Of a stretch of DNA of 64,000 bases, positions 45,085-63,953 are shown piece after piece; position 1 is the first letter of the stretch, and every line of letters begins with the position of its first letter. The DNA is taken from positions 2,102,501-2,166,500 of the forward strand of contig NZ_CP025611.1 in NCBI RefSeq assembly GCF_002868735.1, written 5' to 3'. Origin of the DNA: Niveispirillum cyanobacteriorum (GTDB lineage: Bacteria > Pseudomonadota > Alphaproteobacteria > Azospirillales > Azospirillaceae). The position numbers and the translations under genes are program-made. The notes beneath the pieces are model-generated. The model worked only from the letters and a program-made list of their open reading frames with translations, had not been told where the DNA came from and ran no database searches.

Positions 45085-46179
45085 ATGCTGTCCCTGCTCT
45101 ATCGCTGGTTCCGCTCCCCCCGGTCACACCTGCGTGAGGTGACGCTGGGTCGGCGTTTGGGCACGCTGGTGCTCTGGGTGGCCGCCGTCTGTGCGGCCCA
45201 TGTCAGCGCCATGATGGTGCTGGAAGGGATGGCGCTGCGCGACGCGCTGTGGCTGACCGCCACCACTATCGTGACCGTCGGCTATGGCGACCTGTTCGCG
45301 AAGACCGATGGCGGGCGACTGGCCACGGTCGGCTTCATGTATGTCGGCGGCATTTTCGTGGTGGCTAGTCTGGTTTCGGCCCTGGTCGACTGGCGCATGG
45401 ATCAACAGGAACGCAAGGCAAACGGGACCTGGGGGTGGAAATTGTCGAACCATCTGCTGCTGATTGGGGAACCCAGCGGCGACGCGGTCCAGCATATCTG
45501 CCGTCTGGTCGATCAGGTCCGCGCGCATGAGGATTGGCGCGACACGCCCGTCCTGCTGCTGACCCGCACATTCGAAGCCACACGCCTGCCGACGACACTG
45601 GTCGATCGGGGGGTGGTGCATGTCACGGGCGTTGCGGCTGATGCCACGGCGCTTGCCCATGCTGCGCCTGACCGGGCGCGGACCTCCCTGGTCTTTTCCA
45701 GCTCCGAAACCGACCGGGAGGCGACGGCCCGGGTGCTGGACACCGTCCTGCGCCTGCGGGAAGCGGGACAGACAACCGCCATCGTGGCTGAATGCGTGGA
45801 TGTGGCCGACTATGACCGTTTAGCGCGTCTGGGCGCGGCGCAGCCCATCCGTGTCATGCACGGCTATCCCGAAGTGGCGGCGCGCGCCATTGTCAGCCCT
45901 GGGTCCGAAGCGCTGATCGAACAGCTTTTCACGGCAGAAGGCGACGAATGCCGCCGTATCGACCTACCCCGCGTGTGGGAAGGAACTTGGCTGGACCTGT
46001 TGACACGCATCGCTGGGGCGGGCATCGGCACCCCCATCGGCTATCTCTGCGGCGATACGGGTTCGGTGCTGGCCAATCCGGTGGGACGATCCATCCGCGC
46101 CAAGGCCCTGTTCCTGATCGTGGGCGATGACCGGCAGGTCAATGCCGCCCGGGACACGATACACGCCCTGTCACTGTGA
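45085..46179 (+). CDS. Two-TM potassium channel with TrkA-N/RCK-type domain
   Basis: K+-selective channel. Two membrane helices (about 25-45 and 80-100) flank the selectivity filter TVGYGD at 64-69. The cytosolic remainder (about 115-364) is a tandem nucleotide-binding RCK-like region resembling Kch or GsuK-type ligand gates, though the GxGxxG motif is degenerate (LLIGEPSGDA). Tetramer formation is expected. Alone in its transcription unit. Confidence 0.88.
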   Translation: MLSLLYRWFRSPRSHLREVTLGRRLGTLVLWVAAVCAAHVSAMMVLEGMALRDALWLTATTIVTVGYGDLFAKTDGGRLATVGFMYVGGIFVVASLVSALVDWRMDQQERKANGTWGWKLSNHLLLIGEPSGDAVQHICRLVDQVRAHEDWRDTPVLLLTRTFEATRLPTTLVDRGVVHVTGVAADATALAHAAPDRARTSLVFSSSETDREATARVLDTVLRLREAGQTTAIVAECVDVADYDRLARLGAAQPIRVMHGYPEVAARAIVSPGSEALIEQLFTAEGDECRRIDLPRVWEGTWLDLLTRIAGAGIGTPIGYLCGDTGSVLANPVGRSIRAKALFLIVGDDRQVNAARDTIHALSL

Positions 46180-58369: not shown

Positions 58370-58762
58370 ATGTTCGAGACCCTGCCGCTTTACCTGACCT
58401 TTGTCGGCGCCTCGGTGGCGCTGCTGGCCCTGGCCTTGCTGGCCTATACGCTGATCACGCCTTATCGCGAGTGGGCCTTGATCCGGCAGGGCAATTCGGC
58501 GGCTGCGACCAGCATGGGCGGGACCGCCATCGGCATGGCCATCGCCCTGTCATCGGTGGCGCGGGGCACCTACTCGGTCGCCGAGCTGCTGATGTGGGGT
58601 GGGTTGGCGTTGGTCTGTCAGTTGCTGGTGTTTGTCGCCGTCTGTTTCCTGCTGCCCGGTTTCCGGCAGGGGATTGAGGCGGACAAGCTGGGCTATGGCG
58701 TCACGCTGGGCACCTTGTCCATTGCCATGGGAATTTTGAATGCCGGGGCGCTTTCGGTTTAA
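58370..58762 (+). CDS. DUF350 membrane protein (YjfL-like)
   Basis: A 130-residue protein with four membrane helices; DUF350 is a duplicated two-helix unit, visible as two related halves. It starts the cluster that encodes PspA-like, DUF1190 and ATP-grasp proteins. An AAGGAGC element lies about 11 nt before ATG 58370. Predicted to act as a membrane scaffold or channel; activity unknown. Confidence 0.85.
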   Translation: MFETLPLYLTFVGASVALLALALLAYTLITPYREWALIRQGNSAAATSMGGTAIGMAIALSSVARGTYSVAELLMWGGLALVCQLLVFVAVCFLLPGFRQGIEADKLGYGVTLGTLSIAMGILNAGALSV

Positions 58763-58847
58763 ACCCGGCCTCCCCATCTCTGATTAACCCCGCCCGGCTG
58801 TGACCGGCGGGGCCGTTCTGCTTGGTCTTGAGGAGCCAGTTCCAATG

Positions 58848-59669
58848 ATGCAGTTCTTCCGCACGCTGTTGGGCGTGAAGGGTGAGAAGGTGGGCCGCCA
58901 GGTGGTGGATGCCCTGGTCGCCATGGACCCCAAGAGCGCGTCCGTTGCCCAGTTGCGGGTCATGGAAGCCGATCTGGACAAGGCCGGCAAGCTGCTGACC
59001 AACCTGCGCGTCGATATGCAGCGTGAGCGCAAGGAAGCGGTCGAAGCGCGGGAGAATTATGACCGCCGTCTGGCCGCTGCCGAGCATCTGAACAACCTGC
59101 TGGCCACCGCCGAGGGCGAGCGTCTGGCCAGCCTGGAGGCCAGCCTGGCCAAGCTGCTGGCCCAGTTGGAGGAACTGGAAGGCGAGGTCGCCATCGAGGA
59201 GCGGGAGGCCGACGAGGCCGAGGCCCTGGTCGCAGAAGCAGAGGTCGCTTATCGCGAAAAGGCCCGCGCCCTGACCGAGGCCAAGTCGGCCCTGGCCAAG
59301 GCCGAGCGCGACATGCAACGCGCCAGCATCCAGGAGGAGCGTGAGCGCGAGCGTGCCAACCGCGCCGCCCAGGTGGCCGGCCTGCGTGATGATGGCGGAT
59401 CGAAGCTGAACACCGCCATCGATGCCATGACCCGCCGCGCCAATGAGGCCCGCGCAAATGCCGAAGCGGCGCGAATGAAGGCCCAGGCCCTGGGCGATCT
59501 GTCGCGGAAGTCCGCCGATGATATGGGCGATGCCGATATCCAGGCGGCCCTGGCCGCCGTGGGCAAGGGCGGGGCACCCGCCCTGTCGGTGCAGGAACGT
59601 TTGGCCCGCCTGAAGGGTCCGTCGCCCGCCGCCGCCCCGCTGGCCATCACCGACAAGTGGAGCAAGTAG
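58848..59669 (+). CDS. PspA/IM30-like coiled-coil protein (YjfJ-like)
   Basis: A 273-residue protein that is almost entirely alpha-helical, with charged heptads (for example KEAVEARENYDRRLAAAEHLNNLLATAEGERLA) and a short N-terminal amphipathic helix (MQFFRTLLGVKGEKV). It resembles the YjfJ branch of the PspA/IM30 membrane-remodelling family, which protects or repairs the inner membrane. ATG 58848 or 58845 fits. Member of the DUF350-DUF1190-ATP-grasp cluster. Confidence 0.82.
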   Translation: MQFFRTLLGVKGEKVGRQVVDALVAMDPKSASVAQLRVMEADLDKAGKLLTNLRVDMQRERKEAVEARENYDRRLAAAEHLNNLLATAEGERLASLEASLAKLLAQLEELEGEVAIEEREADEAEALVAEAEVAYREKARALTEAKSALAKAERDMQRASIQEERERERANRAAQVAGLRDDGGSKLNTAIDAMTRRANEARANAEAARMKAQALGDLSRKSADDMGDADIQAALAAVGKGGAPALSVQERLARLKGPSPAAAPLAITDKWSK

Positions 59670-59725
59670 GGCCGCAACGCCCCTGACTGCAACCGTTACC
59701 CGCCACCATCGCCATCCGGGCCGCC

Positions 59726-60364
59726 ATGACCGACCAACAGCGCAAACGCCGCCGTTCCGCCCATGTCTCCACCCTGCTTGTCGGGGGGGCGGCGGCCCTG
59801 ATGCTGTCGGGCTGCGGCGGCGATGACGTGCAGGAGACAGAGGCCCGCATCTTCCCGACGGTGGAGGCGTGTCTGGTGGAGTTCAGCCAGCAGGAATGCA
59901 ACAGCGCCTTTGAACAGGCCAAGCAACTGCACCTGCAATCCACCCCACGCTTCGACACGGCTGCGGCGTGCGAGGCCAGTATGGGCAATGGTGCCTGTCA
60001 GCCCATGGTCCTGTCGCAGCCGGATGGCAGCCTGAGCAACGTCTTCGTGCCGGCCCTGATGGGCTTCATGCTGGCCAAGGCCTTGCAGCCGCCCCCGCAA
60101 TATGGCGCTGGCTATATCGGGGCCGGCGGCGGTTACTATTACCCGCGCCCCATCTATATCGACCGTGACGGGTTCATGTATAGCGGTCGCGGTAGCCTGG
60201 GCCGCGCCCCGGTCAGCCGCGACAGCTTCACCCAGGGCAAGACTGGCTTTGGCATGAAGACCGAGGTACGGGGCAAGTCGGCGCAGGTGGGGACCACCAC
60301 CAAATCCACCAGCCGCGGCGGCTTTGGCAAATCGTCGGCCCGGTTCGGCGGCGGCGGTTCCTGA
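59726..60364 (+). CDS. DUF1190 lipoprotein (YjfM/YgiB-like)
   Basis: A 212-residue lipoprotein with a basic N-terminus and lipobox LSGC (27-30, Cys30). The DUF1190 core follows: FPTVEACLVEFSQQECNSAFEQAKQLH, four paired Cys residues, then a Tyr/Pro/Gly-rich segment (GGYYYPRPIYID) and a Gly/Ser/Lys-rich tail ending GGGGS. YgiB/YjfM relatives are usually next to a glutathionylspermidine-synthase-like ATP-grasp gene, exactly as here, and the Cys-rich region could be its substrate or partner. Confidence 0.87.
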   Translation: MTDQQRKRRRSAHVSTLLVGGAAALMLSGCGGDDVQETEARIFPTVEACLVEFSQQECNSAFEQAKQLHLQSTPRFDTAAACEASMGNGACQPMVLSQPDGSLSNVFVPALMGFMLAKALQPPPQYGAGYIGAGGGYYYPRPIYIDRDGFMYSGRGSLGRAPVSRDSFTQGKTGFGMKTEVRGKSAQVGTTTKSTSRGGFGKSSARFGGGGS

Positions 60365-60419
60365 CCACAGATCCTCGTCCCCTTACCGTCCAGCACCCAT
60401 CAGCACAGCGGATAGCGCC

Positions 60420-61721
60420 ATGCATCGCCAATCCATCCGACCGCGTCCCGATTGGAAAGCCCGCATGGAAGCGCTGGGCTTTGATTTCCACACCATCCCA
60501 ACCGACGAGGACCCAAGCGGCGTCTATTGGGATGAGAGTGCCTGCTGGGTATTCAGCGAGGCGGAGATCGATCTGCTGGAAGAAGCAGGCAACGAGTTGC
60601 ACAAGATGTGTCTGGCCGCCGCCAAGCGCATCATCGATGAACGGCTCTATCCGCTGCTGAACATCCCCGCCCATTCCATCCCCGCCATCGAAGCGTCCTG
60701 GCAGCGCCATCAGCAAGGCCAGGAATTCTCCCTTTATGGCCGTTTCGATCTCGCCTATGGCGGGGCGGGGCACGGCGATGGAATGCCCAAGTTGCTGGAA
60801 TATAACGCCGACACGCCCACGGGCCTCTATGAGGCGGCGGTAGCGCAATGGGCCTGGCTGGAGGATGTATTCCCCGACGGGGACCAGTTCAATTCCATCC
60901 ATGAGGCCCTGGTCGATCAGTGGAAGGCCCTGCTGCGCGCCGACCGTCTGCTGGCCGATGACAGCGACCGGCGCGGCGAGTGGGAGGCGGGGCGCGCCCT
61001 GCACCTGACCTGCGCCATGCCGCATACGGAGGATGAGGGCACGCTGCGCTATCTCCAGGACACGGCCATTGAGGCCGGGCTGGCGACCAAGAGCATTGCC
61101 CTGTCCGACATCGGCTGGACAGAGGAGCAGGACCACCTGAACCGCCGCACCCGTAGCTATTTCACCGACCTGGAGGAACAGGAGATCAAGTGCCTGTTCA
61201 AGCTGACCCCCTGGGAATGGCTGGTGGCCGATGATTTCGGCGGCAACCTGCTAACCCTGACACAGCGCAATGATATCCGGGTCGTGGAACCAGCCTGGAA
61301 GATGCTGCTGTCCAACAAGGGGCTGCTGGCGGTTCTGTGGGAAATGTACCCACACCACCCCTATCTGGTGGAAGCACATTTCGACCGCCGGGCCTTTGCC
61401 GCCGGTACCCGCGTGGTGGCAAAGCCACTGCTGGGCCGGGAAGGCGCCAATATCAGCGTCGTCACGATGGGCCCCGATGGCCGCCCCACCACCCGCGAAC
61501 TGGACGTGGCTGGACCTTATGGCGAAGAGGGCTATGTCTATCAGGCCTGGTCGCCGGTGGTGTCGGCGCGGGGGCCGGACATCAAGGGCGTGACGCGTGA
61601 CCATCATGCCGTGATCGGCGCCTGGATGGTGGGCGATGAATGCCGGGGTATCGGTATCCGTGAGGACAGCACCGCCGTCACCCGCGACACATCCCGCTTC
61701 GTGCCGCATCGGTTTGAGTGA
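60420..61721 (+). CDS. Glutathionylspermidine synthase-like ATP-grasp ligase (YjfC/YgiC)
   Basis: A 433-residue ATP-grasp amide ligase. Family blocks include YWDESACWVFSEAEIDLLEEA, LLEYNADTPTGLYEA, the ATP-site lysine region (VAKPLLGREGANISVV) and the C-terminal GDECRGIGIREDSTAVT. Trypanosomal and E. coli enzymes join glutathione to spermidine, but YjfC/YgiC lack the amidase half and their substrates are not settled; a peptide tag on a membrane lipoprotein has been proposed. It follows the DUF1190 gene by 55 nt. Confidence 0.85.
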   Translation: MHRQSIRPRPDWKARMEALGFDFHTIPTDEDPSGVYWDESACWVFSEAEIDLLEEAGNELHKMCLAAAKRIIDERLYPLLNIPAHSIPAIEASWQRHQQGQEFSLYGRFDLAYGGAGHGDGMPKLLEYNADTPTGLYEAAVAQWAWLEDVFPDGDQFNSIHEALVDQWKALLRADRLLADDSDRRGEWEAGRALHLTCAMPHTEDEGTLRYLQDTAIEAGLATKSIALSDIGWTEEQDHLNRRTRSYFTDLEEQEIKCLFKLTPWEWLVADDFGGNLLTLTQRNDIRVVEPAWKMLLSNKGLLAVLWEMYPHHPYLVEAHFDRRAFAAGTRVVAKPLLGREGANISVVTMGPDGRPTTRELDVAGPYGEEGYVYQAWSPVVSARGPDIKGVTRDHHAVIGAWMVGDECRGIGIREDSTAVTRDTSRFVPHRFE

Positions 61722-61786
61722 GGGCTGGCGGCAGGGTCAGGGTGGCTGGGTCGTATCAGGCACAGACCCACACCCGGAGCATGCCC

Positions 61787-62824
61787 ATGCAGAGCCGCCG
61801 TCTGTTTCTGTCCAGCCTTGCCGCCGGCCTGTTGCTGCCGTTTCCCACCGCTGTCGCCCTGCCCGTCGATCCGACATCGCCGGACCTGCCGCGGGTGACG
61901 GCGCTGATAAAGGATGCCATCCGCCGGCATCGGCTGGACGGGGTGGCGGCCATCGCGCATCAGGGGGAGCGCGTGCTGTATCGCGGCTATTTCGGCGATA
62001 TCGGTCCCGGCACCGCCATTGATGTGGCGTCGGCCAGCAAATGGGTGGCGGGGCTTGTGATCATGGCGCTGGTGGGCCAGGGGCGGCTGCGGCTGGACAT
62101 GACCTTGGCTGATGCCGGGCTGGTCAGCACTGGGCCAAAAGCCGGCATCACGCTGGCTCAGTTAATGAGCCATACCTCGGCCCTGCCGGACACCGGCCCC
62201 TTCTGGCAGGATCGCCGCTATCCCACCCCGCAGGCGGCGGCGGCAAAGCTGACGGATATGGACCTGATCGGAGAACCTGGGCAGGTCTTCGCTTATGCCG
62301 GGGTGTCGATGGAAGTGGCGGCGTTCATGGCCGAACAGGCGGGCGGGGCTGATTGGAACAGCCTGTTCCGCCGTCTGATTGCCGACCCGCTGGGCCTGTC
62401 GCCCGCCTGTCGCTGGGGCGACCGCTGGGGGGTGGCCGGTGGGTTGATCGCCAGCCCAGACGATTTCGAGCGGATTCTGCTGCTGATTGCGCGGCAGGGC
62501 GTGATGGCAGACGGGCAGCGCCTGTTGCCGGCAGACATCTTCCCGGTCATGGAGCATGACCAGATCGGGGACGCCCGGCGCAAGCAACAGCCAAACGCTG
62601 CCGCAGCCATGCAGGGTTACGGCATTGGCATGTGGTGCGAACAGCGAGAGGCCGGCGGTGCCTGCCCCACGATCTCCAGCCCTGGCTATTTCGGTACCTG
62701 GCCGCGTATCGACCGCAGCCGCGACCTCACCATTCTGCTGATGGTGAAATCGCGCCTGCGCACGGTCATTGATGACTGGCAAGCGATTATCCAGGCACTG
62801 AGCAGCGCGGCAGCGCCCGGATAA
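61787..62824 (+). CDS. Exported serine hydrolase (class C beta-lactamase family)
   Basis: Beta-lactamase-fold hydrolase of 345 aa. The N-terminus MQSRRLFLSSLAAGLLLPF carries a twin-arginine motif, so Tat export is likely. The nucleophile is in SASK (Ser82, Lys85). The usual YxN motif appears as YAG in FAYAGVSM, without the Asn, which suggests esterase or D-Ala-D-Ala-peptidase-like activity rather than an efficient beta-lactamase. ATG 61787 has GGAG 7 nt upstream; a GTG at 61718 overlaps the ligase stop and would hide the Tat signal. It is the last gene of the cluster. Confidence 0.83.
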   Translation: MQSRRLFLSSLAAGLLLPFPTAVALPVDPTSPDLPRVTALIKDAIRRHRLDGVAAIAHQGERVLYRGYFGDIGPGTAIDVASASKWVAGLVIMALVGQGRLRLDMTLADAGLVSTGPKAGITLAQLMSHTSALPDTGPFWQDRRYPTPQAAAAKLTDMDLIGEPGQVFAYAGVSMEVAAFMAEQAGGADWNSLFRRLIADPLGLSPACRWGDRWGVAGGLIASPDDFERILLLIARQGVMADGQRLLPADIFPVMEHDQIGDARRKQQPNAAAAMQGYGIGMWCEQREAGGACPTISSPGYFGTWPRIDRSRDLTILLMVKSRLRTVIDDWQAIIQALSSAAAPG

Positions 62825-62833
62825 TCGGGAGTG

Positions 62834-62995
62834 TCAAAGCTGCCGACCGGTGCCATCTGTGCTGGCAAAGACACTGTGCAGGAACCACAGAATGAAGGTG
62901 GCCAGCAGCATGAAGCCACCCCATTGACGACTGACGGTCATGACACCGCCCGCCGCAAGCAGGGCGGTGGCGTAGAAGAACAGAGACTTTTTCAT
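62834..62995 (-). CDS. Small two-helix membrane protein
   Basis: A 53-residue protein with two hydrophobic helices (SLFFYATALLAAGGVMTV and GFMLLATFILWFLHSVFA). Convergent with the serine hydrolase. ATG 62995 is used; a longer frame to 63055 begins with an Arg/His-rich leader. No family is known. Ribosome site weak. Confidence 0.55.
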   Translation of the reverse strand: MKKSLFFYATALLAAGGVMTVSRQWGGFMLLATFILWFLHSVFASTDGTGRQL

Positions 62996-63072
62996 GATTA
63001 AGGACTTTCCGGCATGAACGCAGGGGTGGGCATCGGCCACGCGTGCCCTGCGCATTCAAAGATCAGGATGGA

Positions 63073-63510
63073 TCAGACGGAAAGTTCGGTGGGCGGACCG
63101 GTCGGCATGCGGGCGGCATGGCCAGCGCGGGCCATGACAGGCCCCATGATAACCGGCGGCAGGGACGATCTGTCCAGGGCAACCGGGACCGGCATCCAGG
63201 GTGGGCTGGCCGCCACGATCTTGACCGGCGGTGGGTCATCCCCGCCAGACAGATCGGCACGGCGCTGCCCATCAGGCAAGGCGGCCAGCGCGGCCGGCGC
63301 CTCCGACAGGGTGGCGCGCAGACCGGGACCACTGGCCGTCAGTCCTTCGCGCGCCCGATCCCCCTCACCCCCGCCCAGCCCGGCCAGAACGCCGGCACAG
63401 GCAAGCAGCACCAGCAGAGTCAGCGCCTTTACCCGGTCAGACCATTGGCCGATGGCCCCGCGCGGGCGCGGGTCGGCAAGGTCAGAGTGCGGGTGGGCGG
63501 GATCGGTCAT
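63073..63510 (-). CDS. Hypothetical single-TM protein
   Basis: A 145-residue protein with one membrane helix (about 27-48, VKALTLLVLLACAGVLAGLG) and a Pro/Ala-rich periplasmic part. No family recognised. ATG 63510 is preferred; a TTG at 63558 would overlap the haemoglobin stop by 4 nt and cannot be excluded. Confidence 0.55.
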   Translation of the reverse strand: MTDPAHPHSDLADPRPRGAIGQWSDRVKALTLLVLLACAGVLAGLGGGEGDRAREGLTASGPGLRATLSEAPAALAALPDGQRRADLSGGDDPPPVKIVAASPPWMPVPVALDRSSLPPVIMGPVMARAGHAARMPTGPPTELSV

Positions 63511-63554
63511 GACGTCAAGATGGGGGGTGGCGGGGCCGGACGCAAGGCCCGGCT

Positions 63555-63953
63555 TCAATCGTCGCGCGCCATGGCAATGCCCTGCTGCAACGCCTCACCC
63601 ATCCGGGCGGCCTTGTCACGCAGGAAGGCGGCGGCAGGCGGGGTGAACAGCCGGTCCGTGCTTTGTGCGAACAAGTCCAGCCAGCGCTGGAAATGCGTGG
63701 CATCCAGGCCGGGAATGCCCGCATGCACCTGCATGGGTCGGCCCCCATATCGCCCCGTGCCCATGGTCACCGACGACCAGAAATCATGTACCCGGTGCAG
63801 ATGGGCGGCCCATTCCTCATCCCCATCCCCCACCATGGTCTGGAACAGGGGCCCCAGCAGCGGGTCCAGGCGGGCAGCGGCATAGAATTCGATGAGCAGC
63901 ACTGTCAGGCTGTCATCATCGATGCGGGCATAGGGCGGGCGGGTGGTTATCAT
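63555..63953 (-). CDS. Group III truncated haemoglobin
   Basis: A 132-residue 2-on-2 globin. The proximal haem ligand is His77 in RPMQVHAGI, with conserved FWSSV and TMGTGRYGGRPM before it and the FQRWLDLF helix after it. Group III trHbs are thought to handle O2, NO or peroxide under low oxygen. It is the first gene of a two-gene minus-strand unit with the single-TM protein. Confidence 0.9.
   Translation of the reverse strand: MITTRPPYARIDDDSLTVLLIEFYAAARLDPLLGPLFQTMVGDGDEEWAAHLHRVHDFWSSVTMGTGRYGGRPMQVHAGIPGLDATHFQRWLDLFAQSTDRLFTPPAAAFLRDKAARMGEALQQGIAMARDD

Follow-up and report, generated by a model that had tools for sequence, protein, structure and literature searches.

The main new result of this study is a conserved C-terminal tail of DUF1190 lipoproteins, RGGFG followed by about 10-12 residues and then Gly/Ser. 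The tail is encoded beside the ligase in bacteria and phages and names a candidate substrate for YgiC and YjfC, whose natural substrate was not found named in the literature searched. The locus lies in a 64,000-nucleotide stretch of Niveispirillum cyanobacteriorum DNA (contig NZ_CP025611.1, positions 2,102,501 to 2,166,500; hereafter the window). The five same-strand genes outlined in a preliminary description of this DNA were confirmed by profile matches for four of them and by a coiled-coil open reading frame for the other. The features, in window positions, are as follows.

45085..46179, + strand: ion-channel homologue adjoining gyrB; in G004 and G022 its relatives follow the ligase immediately on the 3' side
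58370..58762, + strand: DUF350 membrane protein (YjfL family); PF03994, 104.6 bits, 5.6e-30, the sole PF03994 match in the genome
58845..59669, + strand: coiled-coil protein, possibly of a very diverged PspA/Vipp1 type; no Pfam match
59726..60364, + strand: DUF1190 lipoprotein, candidate ligase substrate; PF06693, 96.3 bits, 3.1e-27
59804..59815, + strand: lipobox LSGC of the DUF1190 protein, recognised by eye from translation and alignment
60314..60361, + strand: C-terminal tail RGGFGKSSARFGGGGS of the DUF1190 protein; conserved motif and Gly/Ser terminus
60420..61721, + strand: ATP-grasp ligase of the GSP_synth family (YgiC/YjfC type), without amidase domain; PF03738, 433 bits, 1.4e-129
61781..62824, + strand: PF00144 serine hydrolase with predicted Tat-type export; 109.9 bits, 1.9e-31
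62030..62041, + strand: SxxK motif of the hydrolase, S84-K87, from motif alignment
62294..62302, + strand: Y172-A-G174 of the hydrolase, replacing YxN, from motif alignment
62678..62686, + strand: SPG third motif of the hydrolase, residues 300-302, from motif alignment; identical in 5tgf

The conserved tail and the core operon

The DUF1190 protein, which carries the LSGC lipobox, exceeds the PF06693 cut-off of 22 bits with its score of 96.3 bits, and the lipobox cysteine C30 as well as C49, C58, C82 and C91 are invariant among 14 aligned DUF1190 proteins. In a dereplicated set of 44 such proteins, GFG is retained in 43 and the final residue is Gly or Ser in 42 (95% at position -1, 89% at -2), against a background of 57% at positions -2 to -11; the binomial P for the Gly/Ser terminus is 1e-8 when relatives are treated as independent. 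The tail of the Niveispirillum protein itself ends in Ser, not Gly. The tail may be mentioned by Iyer et al. 2009, on amidoligases, or by Pederick 2023. It goes unmentioned in the available portion of Ravi et al. 2024 (PMC11237479) and in the title of the other DUF1190 paper found.

Of 72 ligase loci, 51 have a match to a strict tail pattern no further than 3 kb from the ligase; among 16,797 background open reading frames there are 12 matches, two of them in DUF1190 genes. No tail was found at seven of the 72 loci (L183, L187, L191, L192, L207, L208 and L215). Because the pattern was widened after earlier inspections of tails, only the plasmid and phage loci L221-L232 (n = 12) count as held out; among these, the preset pattern was present in eight and a looser reading raised this to 11, with no tail at L230. 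The carriers are not uniform. In actinobacterial membrane proteins encoded beside the ligase, the tail is the only part in common with DUF1190; the three that were scanned (L210, L212 and L221) gave no Pfam match, and hhalign links L222 to DUF1190 through the tail alone. The Acinetobacter-type carriers, for their part, may be distantly related to DUF1190. The ligase was found in 127 of 50,697 phage records, and phage Motura encodes an annotated homospermidine synthase, a tailed lipoprotein, the ligase and DUF350 inside 4 kb.

Within 3 kb of the ligase, DUF1190 is present in 44 and DUF350 in 33 of the 53 loci outside Niveispirillum, and hence this operon grouping is not due to chance. Ligase, DUF350 and DUF1190 occur together in an operon type already described in the literature (Ravi 2024, group 3). 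Upstream of DUF350, no promoter pattern was common to the nine loci compared and no sigma-54, ECF15 or RpoH pattern was matched; a block in this region is common to our locus, G010 and G008.

The coiled-coil protein had been described as PspA-like. None of ten members of its family matches PF04012 at E<=1, whereas E. coli YjfJ does so at 5.3e-58, and hhalign of the protein to YjfJ gave a probability of 1.3%, by which a PspA identity at the sequence level was ruled out. Two PF04012 genes are present in the genome, both outside the cluster. What stood of the earlier assignment is a remote similarity of predicted fold: the six best Foldseek matches of the predicted model (pLDDT 70, pTM 0.48) are all Vipp1 chains, with a best E of 5.5e-3, none at or below 0.001, and TM scores of 0.31-0.39 for those six.

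The ligase and its possible substrate

The assignment of the ligase as glutathionylspermidine-synthase-like was borne out by its PF03738 score of 433 bits, against a curated cut-off of 29.3 and with the whole domain covered. It is nearer to YgiC (289 bits), which is also its best PDB match, than to YjfC (230 bits). Eight residues of E. coli Gss (R316, D318, E330, N332, K498, K533, R538 and R598), which we take to be ATP- and metal-binding residues, align with R108, D110, E127, N129, K300, K335, R340 and R414 of the ligase, and C539 and D610 of Gss are replaced in the alignment. YgiC and YjfC bear the RefSeq product name peptide-spermidine ligase, and Pederick 2023 reportedly described both as such.

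We tentatively favour, at somewhat short of an even chance and on the strength of sequence comparisons, a model in which the ligase of the core operon caps the C-terminal tail of a carrier protein with a polyamine. The core is a reduced version of the known envelope operon that centres on a peptide-polyamine ligase of YgiC/YjfC type. Using ATP, the ligase would attach a polyamine by an amide bond to the terminal carboxyl group of a carrier protein anchored in the membrane, which in this cluster would be the DUF1190 lipoprotein. Recognition would be through the tail RGGFG-x(10-12)-[GS][GS], which may be either substrate or docking site. Capping would take place in the cytoplasm, ahead of export, and therefore the tail of the periplasmic lipoprotein would be capped and positively charged, while DUF350, the coiled-coil protein and, elsewhere, the ion channel may stabilise the membrane or respond to it. 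What we infer comprises the modification itself and its site, as well as the amine, the timing and the physiological role. The ligase is cytosolic and the C-terminus of the carrier is exported, which poses a timing problem for the tail model. A Gly/Ser-rich tail could also serve a role other than that of ligase substrate.

Alternatively, the ligase may make small free peptide-polyamine conjugates, with the tail put to another use, for example as a binding site for the conjugate, for polyamines or for a membrane partner. This reading, which we consider possible but rather unlikely, agrees with the textbook reaction of Gss on free glutathione, with the reported activity of YgiC and YjfC on peptides, and with a topology that separates the ligase from the mature lipoprotein. 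However, it does not sit easily with the strongest constraint of the tail region falling on its extreme C-terminal residues, nor with the tail being the sole part common to the actinobacterial carriers.

As for the amine of the capping model, host-made spermidine via SpeE or NspC was rejected, since neither gene was found in the genome (no match to PF01564 or TIGR01047). The amine may therefore be homospermidine; homospermidine or an imported polyamine would be likelier here than self-made spermidine. If capping is true, bacteria would have, in polyamine-capped lipoprotein tails, a protein modification that ties polyamines to envelope stress and that phages carry too. Of the membrane-stress or protein-tagging system proposed earlier, a membrane-associated, ligase-based modification is well supported by the ligase relatives and the DUF1190 tail offers a concrete site, but the part given to the hydrolase finds no support beyond the genus.

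The serine hydrolase

The hydrolase carries the twin-arginine motif SRRLFL, with RR in all eight Niveispirillum orthologues, and has SxxK and a catalytic Tyr within a class C beta-lactamase fold. The YxN and KTG/HxG third motif of canonical serine beta-lactamases and DD-peptidases are absent, with YAG and SPG instead. The Asn earlier noted as missing is indeed missing, but this is a subfamily trait rather than a peculiarity, as 12 of 81 aligned relatives have YxG and 37 have YxN. The best fold match is 5tgf (TM 0.76).

Seven Niveispirillum genomes have both genes; in five of them the hydrolase is no more than 5 kb from the operon, on either side, and on the same strand, in two orders, and the outer contexts are pnp (our locus, G010 and G001) or hslVU (G009 and G002). 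In the remaining two, G003 and G008, it is unlinked and adjoins a Trypsin_2/PDZ protease. G006 has the hydrolase without the ligase, and G004 and G007 the ligase without the hydrolase. A role in protein quality control, as the hslVU and Trypsin_2/PDZ contexts might suggest, was rejected, the contexts differing between lineages. When an HMM built from the 81 relatives was run over the fetched stretches, the hydrolase was found within 3 kb of the ligase at none of 53 loci outside Niveispirillum, and anywhere in the fetched stretch at one; conversely, the operon is near one of 80 hydrolase relatives, and that one is from Niveispirillum. The hydrolase was thus rejected as a conserved system component outside the genus: the co-occurrence looked for holds inside Niveispirillum but not beyond it, and the proposed role in the modification finds no support past this one genus. 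A globin-like gene is also found near the hydrolase, in two arrangements.

The hydrolase is probably a local, genus-level accessory and not part of the core; in the capping model it would be a fast-evolving periplasmic accessory of Niveispirillum. We think it somewhat probable that it is a periplasmic esterase or peptidase with a part in envelope upkeep but no relation to the operon, similar to EstG of Caulobacter, and that it sits beside the operon by chance. The two genes are unlinked, or one is absent, in five of the ten Niveispirillum genomes having either, no association with the ligase is seen outside the genus, and, of the fold matches that follow 5tgf and SurE, EstG structures are among the best. 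The substrate of EstG is given as a cyclic glucan in the available portion of its source (PMC11389396). Against coincidence, re-association by chance on both sides and in two contexts is unlikely, at an estimated 0.2% or so per independent event (about 10 kb in 5.5 Mb).

It is improbable, in our judgement, that the hydrolase is a periplasmic eraser or trimmer of the polyamine or of tail residues, replacing the amidase half of Gss. The recurrent same-strand linkage in two orders and two contexts, the agreement between hydrolase and core gene trees, purifying selection on the hydrolase (dN/dS 0.14-0.27), the lack of an amidase domain in the ligase and the presence of amide hydrolases such as 6-aminohexanoate-dimer hydrolase among PF00144 folds would all fit such a function. 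However, the unlinked and unpaired congeners, the absence of the pairing outside the genus and the faster evolution of the hydrolase than of core genes argue against it, and, given the globin-like gene in its two arrangements, local shuffling alone may explain the linkage. By itself the hydrolase has little significance outside Niveispirillum.

In the widest, and doubtful, form of the capping model, YgiC/YjfC-type ligases would be writers of a C-terminal modification common to Proteobacteria, Actinobacteria and phages, polyamine-capping the RGGFG...[GS] tails of membrane-anchored carriers, different carriers having converged on one tail; homospermidine would be used where SpeE is absent, and Niveispirillum would have recruited its Tat-exported hydrolase to remove or trim the cap.

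Comparison with known systems

The ligase shares the ATP-grasp fold and aligned catalytic residues with Gss, the bifunctional glutathionylspermidine synthetase/amidase, but unlike Gss it has no amidase domain and has C539 and D610 replaced. The hydrolase has its best solved relative in 5tgf, an uncharacterised PF00144 protein of Bacteroides dorei, which has equivalent YGG and SPG motifs at 27% identity.

The third PspA group of Ravi et al. 2024, in the available portion of that paper, comprises a CesT/Tir-PspA dyad, a K+ channel, DUF350, DUF1190, DUF2491 and a GspS-like ATP-grasp ligase, and includes variants without the dyad (PMC11237479). Here, DUF350, DUF1190 and the ligase are likewise adjacent, and an ion channel adjoins the ligase locus in G004, G022 and Rhizobium johnstonii (L220). 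In contrast, this cluster has no CesT/Tir (DUF2170)-PspA dyad and no DUF2491, its coiled-coil protein fails PF04012, and its channel, a putative member of the ligase system, lies beside gyrB, 12 kb away. The added serine hydrolase is a further difference, a PF00144 hydrolase being unmentioned in that portion of the group description.

The gene order had been said to mirror the yjf genes of E. coli, which is not the case: the E. coli order is yjfI(DUF2170)-J(PspA)-K(DUF2491)-L(DUF350)-M(DUF1190)-C, and DUF2170 and DUF2491 are absent here. Nevertheless, yjfIJKLM-yjfC and ygiBC encode a homologous ligase, DUF350 and DUF1190, and YjfM (RGGYG...GG) and YgiB (RGGFG...GG) carry the same type of tail as the Niveispirillum DUF1190 lipoprotein.

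The gene cluster, its ligase and its coiled-coil protein

The five cluster genes proposed in the preliminary description were confirmed at 58370-62824 of the window, which spans 2102501-2166500 in the 6.05 Mb Niveispirillum cyanobacteriorum genome. All are on one strand, and the gene upstream of them is one that we take to be pnp.

58370-58762, same strand as the other four, DUF350 protein
58845-59669, same strand as the other four, coiled-coil protein of 274 aa
59726-60364, same strand as the other four, DUF1190 lipoprotein
60420-61721, same strand as the other four, ATP-grasp ligase (PF03738)
61781-62824, same strand as the other four, PF00144 serine hydrolase

The intergenic gaps are short (55 bases between the DUF1190 and ligase genes, 59 between the ligase and hydrolase genes), and a promoter and terminator scan gave no excess of sites over shuffled sequence. 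The ligase matches PF03738 with 433 bits, and among solved structures it is closest to YgiC (E 4.9e-85) and YjfC (4.8e-67), Gss being more distant. The ATP- and metal-binding residues R316, D318, E330, N332, K498, K533, R538 and R598 of E. coli Gss are conserved in the aligned ligase, which differs from Gss in having no amidase domain. The RefSeq product name for both YgiC and YjfC is peptide-spermidine ligase, an activity that Pederick reportedly described for them in 2023.

The coiled-coil protein had been described as PspA-like, for which its sequence gives no support. None of ten members matched PF04012 at E<=1, as compared to 5.3e-58 for E. coli YjfJ, and hhalign gave a probability of 1.3% against YjfJ. 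With a predicted model of middling quality (pLDDT 70, pTM 0.48), the six best Foldseek matches were all Vipp1 chains, the first with a probability of 1.00 and an E of 5.5e-3, and none reached E <= 0.001. The modelled fold thus suggests a very diverged PspA/Vipp1 relative. Two true PF04012 genes lie elsewhere in the genome (L158 9239-9913 and L159 9600-10304), one of which, by eye, adjoins pspF- and pspB-like genes.

A C-terminal tail beside the ligase

RGG[FY]G near the C-terminus is almost invariant in aligned DUF1190 proteins, including E. coli YjfM and YgiB. Within the last 60 residues, 39 of 53 loci have the strict motif and 46 a relaxed form, against 0.135 occurrences expected in total over the 53 loci after shuffling. 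After removal of near copies, 43 of 44 DUF1190 proteins contain GFG, the motif mostly being followed by 10-12 residues, and 42 end in Gly or Ser, as compared to 57% Gly/Ser at positions -2 to -11 (binomial P 1e-8, relatedness ignored). No tail-like ending was found in the ligase, DUF350 or coiled-coil proteins of the loci surveyed. DUF350 ends in Tyr in 20/42 loci, possibly another constrained C-terminus.

Defined as R[GSQA]G[FYL]G within 40 residues of the C-terminus, with G or S as the terminal residue, the tail is encoded by an ORF at most 3 kb from the ligase in 51/72 loci, against a background of 12/16,797 ORFs elsewhere, two of the 12 being DUF1190 genes. Among the 21 pattern-negative loci, 14 have a DUF1190 protein with a variant tail or a DUF1190 gene more than 3 kb away. 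The other seven (L183, L187, L191, L192, L207, L208, L215) have no DUF350, DUF1190 or tail nearby; their ligases are mostly low-scoring, diverged or second copies, and possibly form a subfamily with another substrate.

In Nonomuraea, Nocardia and Arthrobacter, a tailed protein that, judged by eye, has either a membrane segment or a lipobox is encoded directly 5' of the ligase; Pfam gave no match for the Nonomuraea and Arthrobacter proteins, the scan covering these two. When a Pseudarthrobacter carrier was compared with DUF1190 by hhalign, the tail alone aligned; carriers in Acinetobacter may be distantly related to DUF1190. Small tailed lipoproteins beside the ligase in Arthrobacter (L212 4368-4874) and Pseudarthrobacter (L222 3001-3498) carry the annotation tRNA-dihydrouridine synthase, apparently in error.

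With the pattern fixed beforehand, the tail was found in 8 of twelve held-out loci from four plasmids and eight phages (6/8 in the first batch, 2/4 in the second). In three more the tail departs from the pattern at one point (KGGFG, or Ala as last residue), and in L230 (DSS3_VP1), whose record ends shortly past the ligase, it was not found. Of 50,697 phage records, 127 contain the ligase. In Achromobacter phage Motura (L226 1803-5396), genes for an annotated homospermidine synthase, a tailed lipoprotein, a YgiC-type ligase, a small protein and DUF350 are consecutive, which amounts to a compact form of the system in a phage. A phage ion channel directly precedes the ligase in L230 (2415-3401) and the tailed lipoprotein in Aeromonas phage 4_4572 (L231 2576-2950).

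In the best-fitting reading, the ligase would recognise the tail of the carrier and join a polyamine by an amide bond to the C-terminal carboxylate before the carrier leaves the cytoplasm; topology is the main difficulty of this reading. We infer the tail to be the substrate from its association with the ligase and its conservation; alternatively, it could be a docking or binding element, the ligase products being small free conjugates. Searches of the host genome at E<=0.001 found neither spermidine synthase (PF01564) nor carboxynorspermidine decarboxylase (TIGR01047). Homospermidine synthase is present in many alphaproteobacteria (PMC4725965), and homospermidine is our candidate for the amine joined in this host. 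The tail was not found described in the literature searched, most subscription papers being outside the reach of that search. That different carriers, different phyla and phages share it makes the tail the finding that most deserves pursuit.

The serine hydrolase

The hydrolase is a genus-level accessory. Among 119 relatives searched, it matched at 1e-10 in 10, namely 8/11 Niveispirillum and two distant genomes; the ligase search hit 64, including 9/11 Niveispirillum. The expected co-occurrence of the two stood inside the genus, where seven genomes have both genes, but not outside it: with fetched stretches of 3 to 20 kb, none of 53 ligase loci gave a hydrolase-HMM match at 3 kb or less, and one gave a match elsewhere in the stretch, ~5.5 kb away. 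Conversely, the operon lies near hydrolase relatives in 1/80 loci, that of Niveispirillum G002.

The hydrolase gene immediately follows the ligase gene in N. cyanobacteriorum and G010; it is directly 5' of DUF350 in G001 and G009, 5' of the operon with two genes intervening in G002, and away from it, adjoining a Trypsin_2/PDZ protease, in G003 and G008. G006 has the hydrolase without the ligase, G004 and G007 the ligase without the hydrolase, and G005 neither. The outer context is pnp in N. cyanobacteriorum, G010 and G001 and hslVU in G009 and G002; in N. cyanobacteriorum, hslU is ~258 kb from the operon. Hydrolase and core trees are concordant within the genus, and the hydrolase has a dN/dS of 0.14-0.27, as compared to 0.03-0.14 in the core genes. 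Three small genes follow on the minus strand (62834-63953), two of which recur by the hydrolase in G002 in a different arrangement. The last (63555-63953) is globin-like by eye, for which a Pfam search gave no confirmation; since it also lies near the hydrolase in N. cyanobacteriorum, G010, G009 and G002, regional shuffling has to be reckoned with.

SxxK is present in 78 of 81 hydrolase relatives; YxG occurs in 12 and YxN in 37, 23 being gapped in that column. The nearest structure, the uncharacterised 5tgf, shares YGG and SPG motifs with the hydrolase, and this YGG together with the YxG relatives marks the missing YxN Asn as a subfamily trait. The Tat-exported hydrolase had been proposed to remove or process the modification. 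It could undo the modification, in Niveispirillum alone, but it is more likely to have an envelope function unrelated to the operon, comparable to that of EstG, a glucan-acting esterase (PMC11389396).

Relation to known operons

An operon group of CesT/Tir-PspA, potassium channel, DUF350, DUF1190, DUF2491 and GspS-like ligase, and variants without the CesT/Tir-PspA pair, are described by Ravi et al. 2024 (PMC11237479). Annotation shows the complete set in Rhizobium johnstonii, and the set also in Aureimonas, where the channel is absent from the stretch shown. An ion-channel homologue lies at 45085-46179 of the window, adjoining gyrB, and its relatives immediately follow the ligase in G004 and in G022, whose ligase locus matches Indioceanicola profundi. 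In heat-evolved E. coli strains, yjfIJKL expression was raised (PMC12492005). The Niveispirillum cluster contains no DUF2170 or DUF2491 gene, and the operon studied here belongs, in reduced form, to a known kind.
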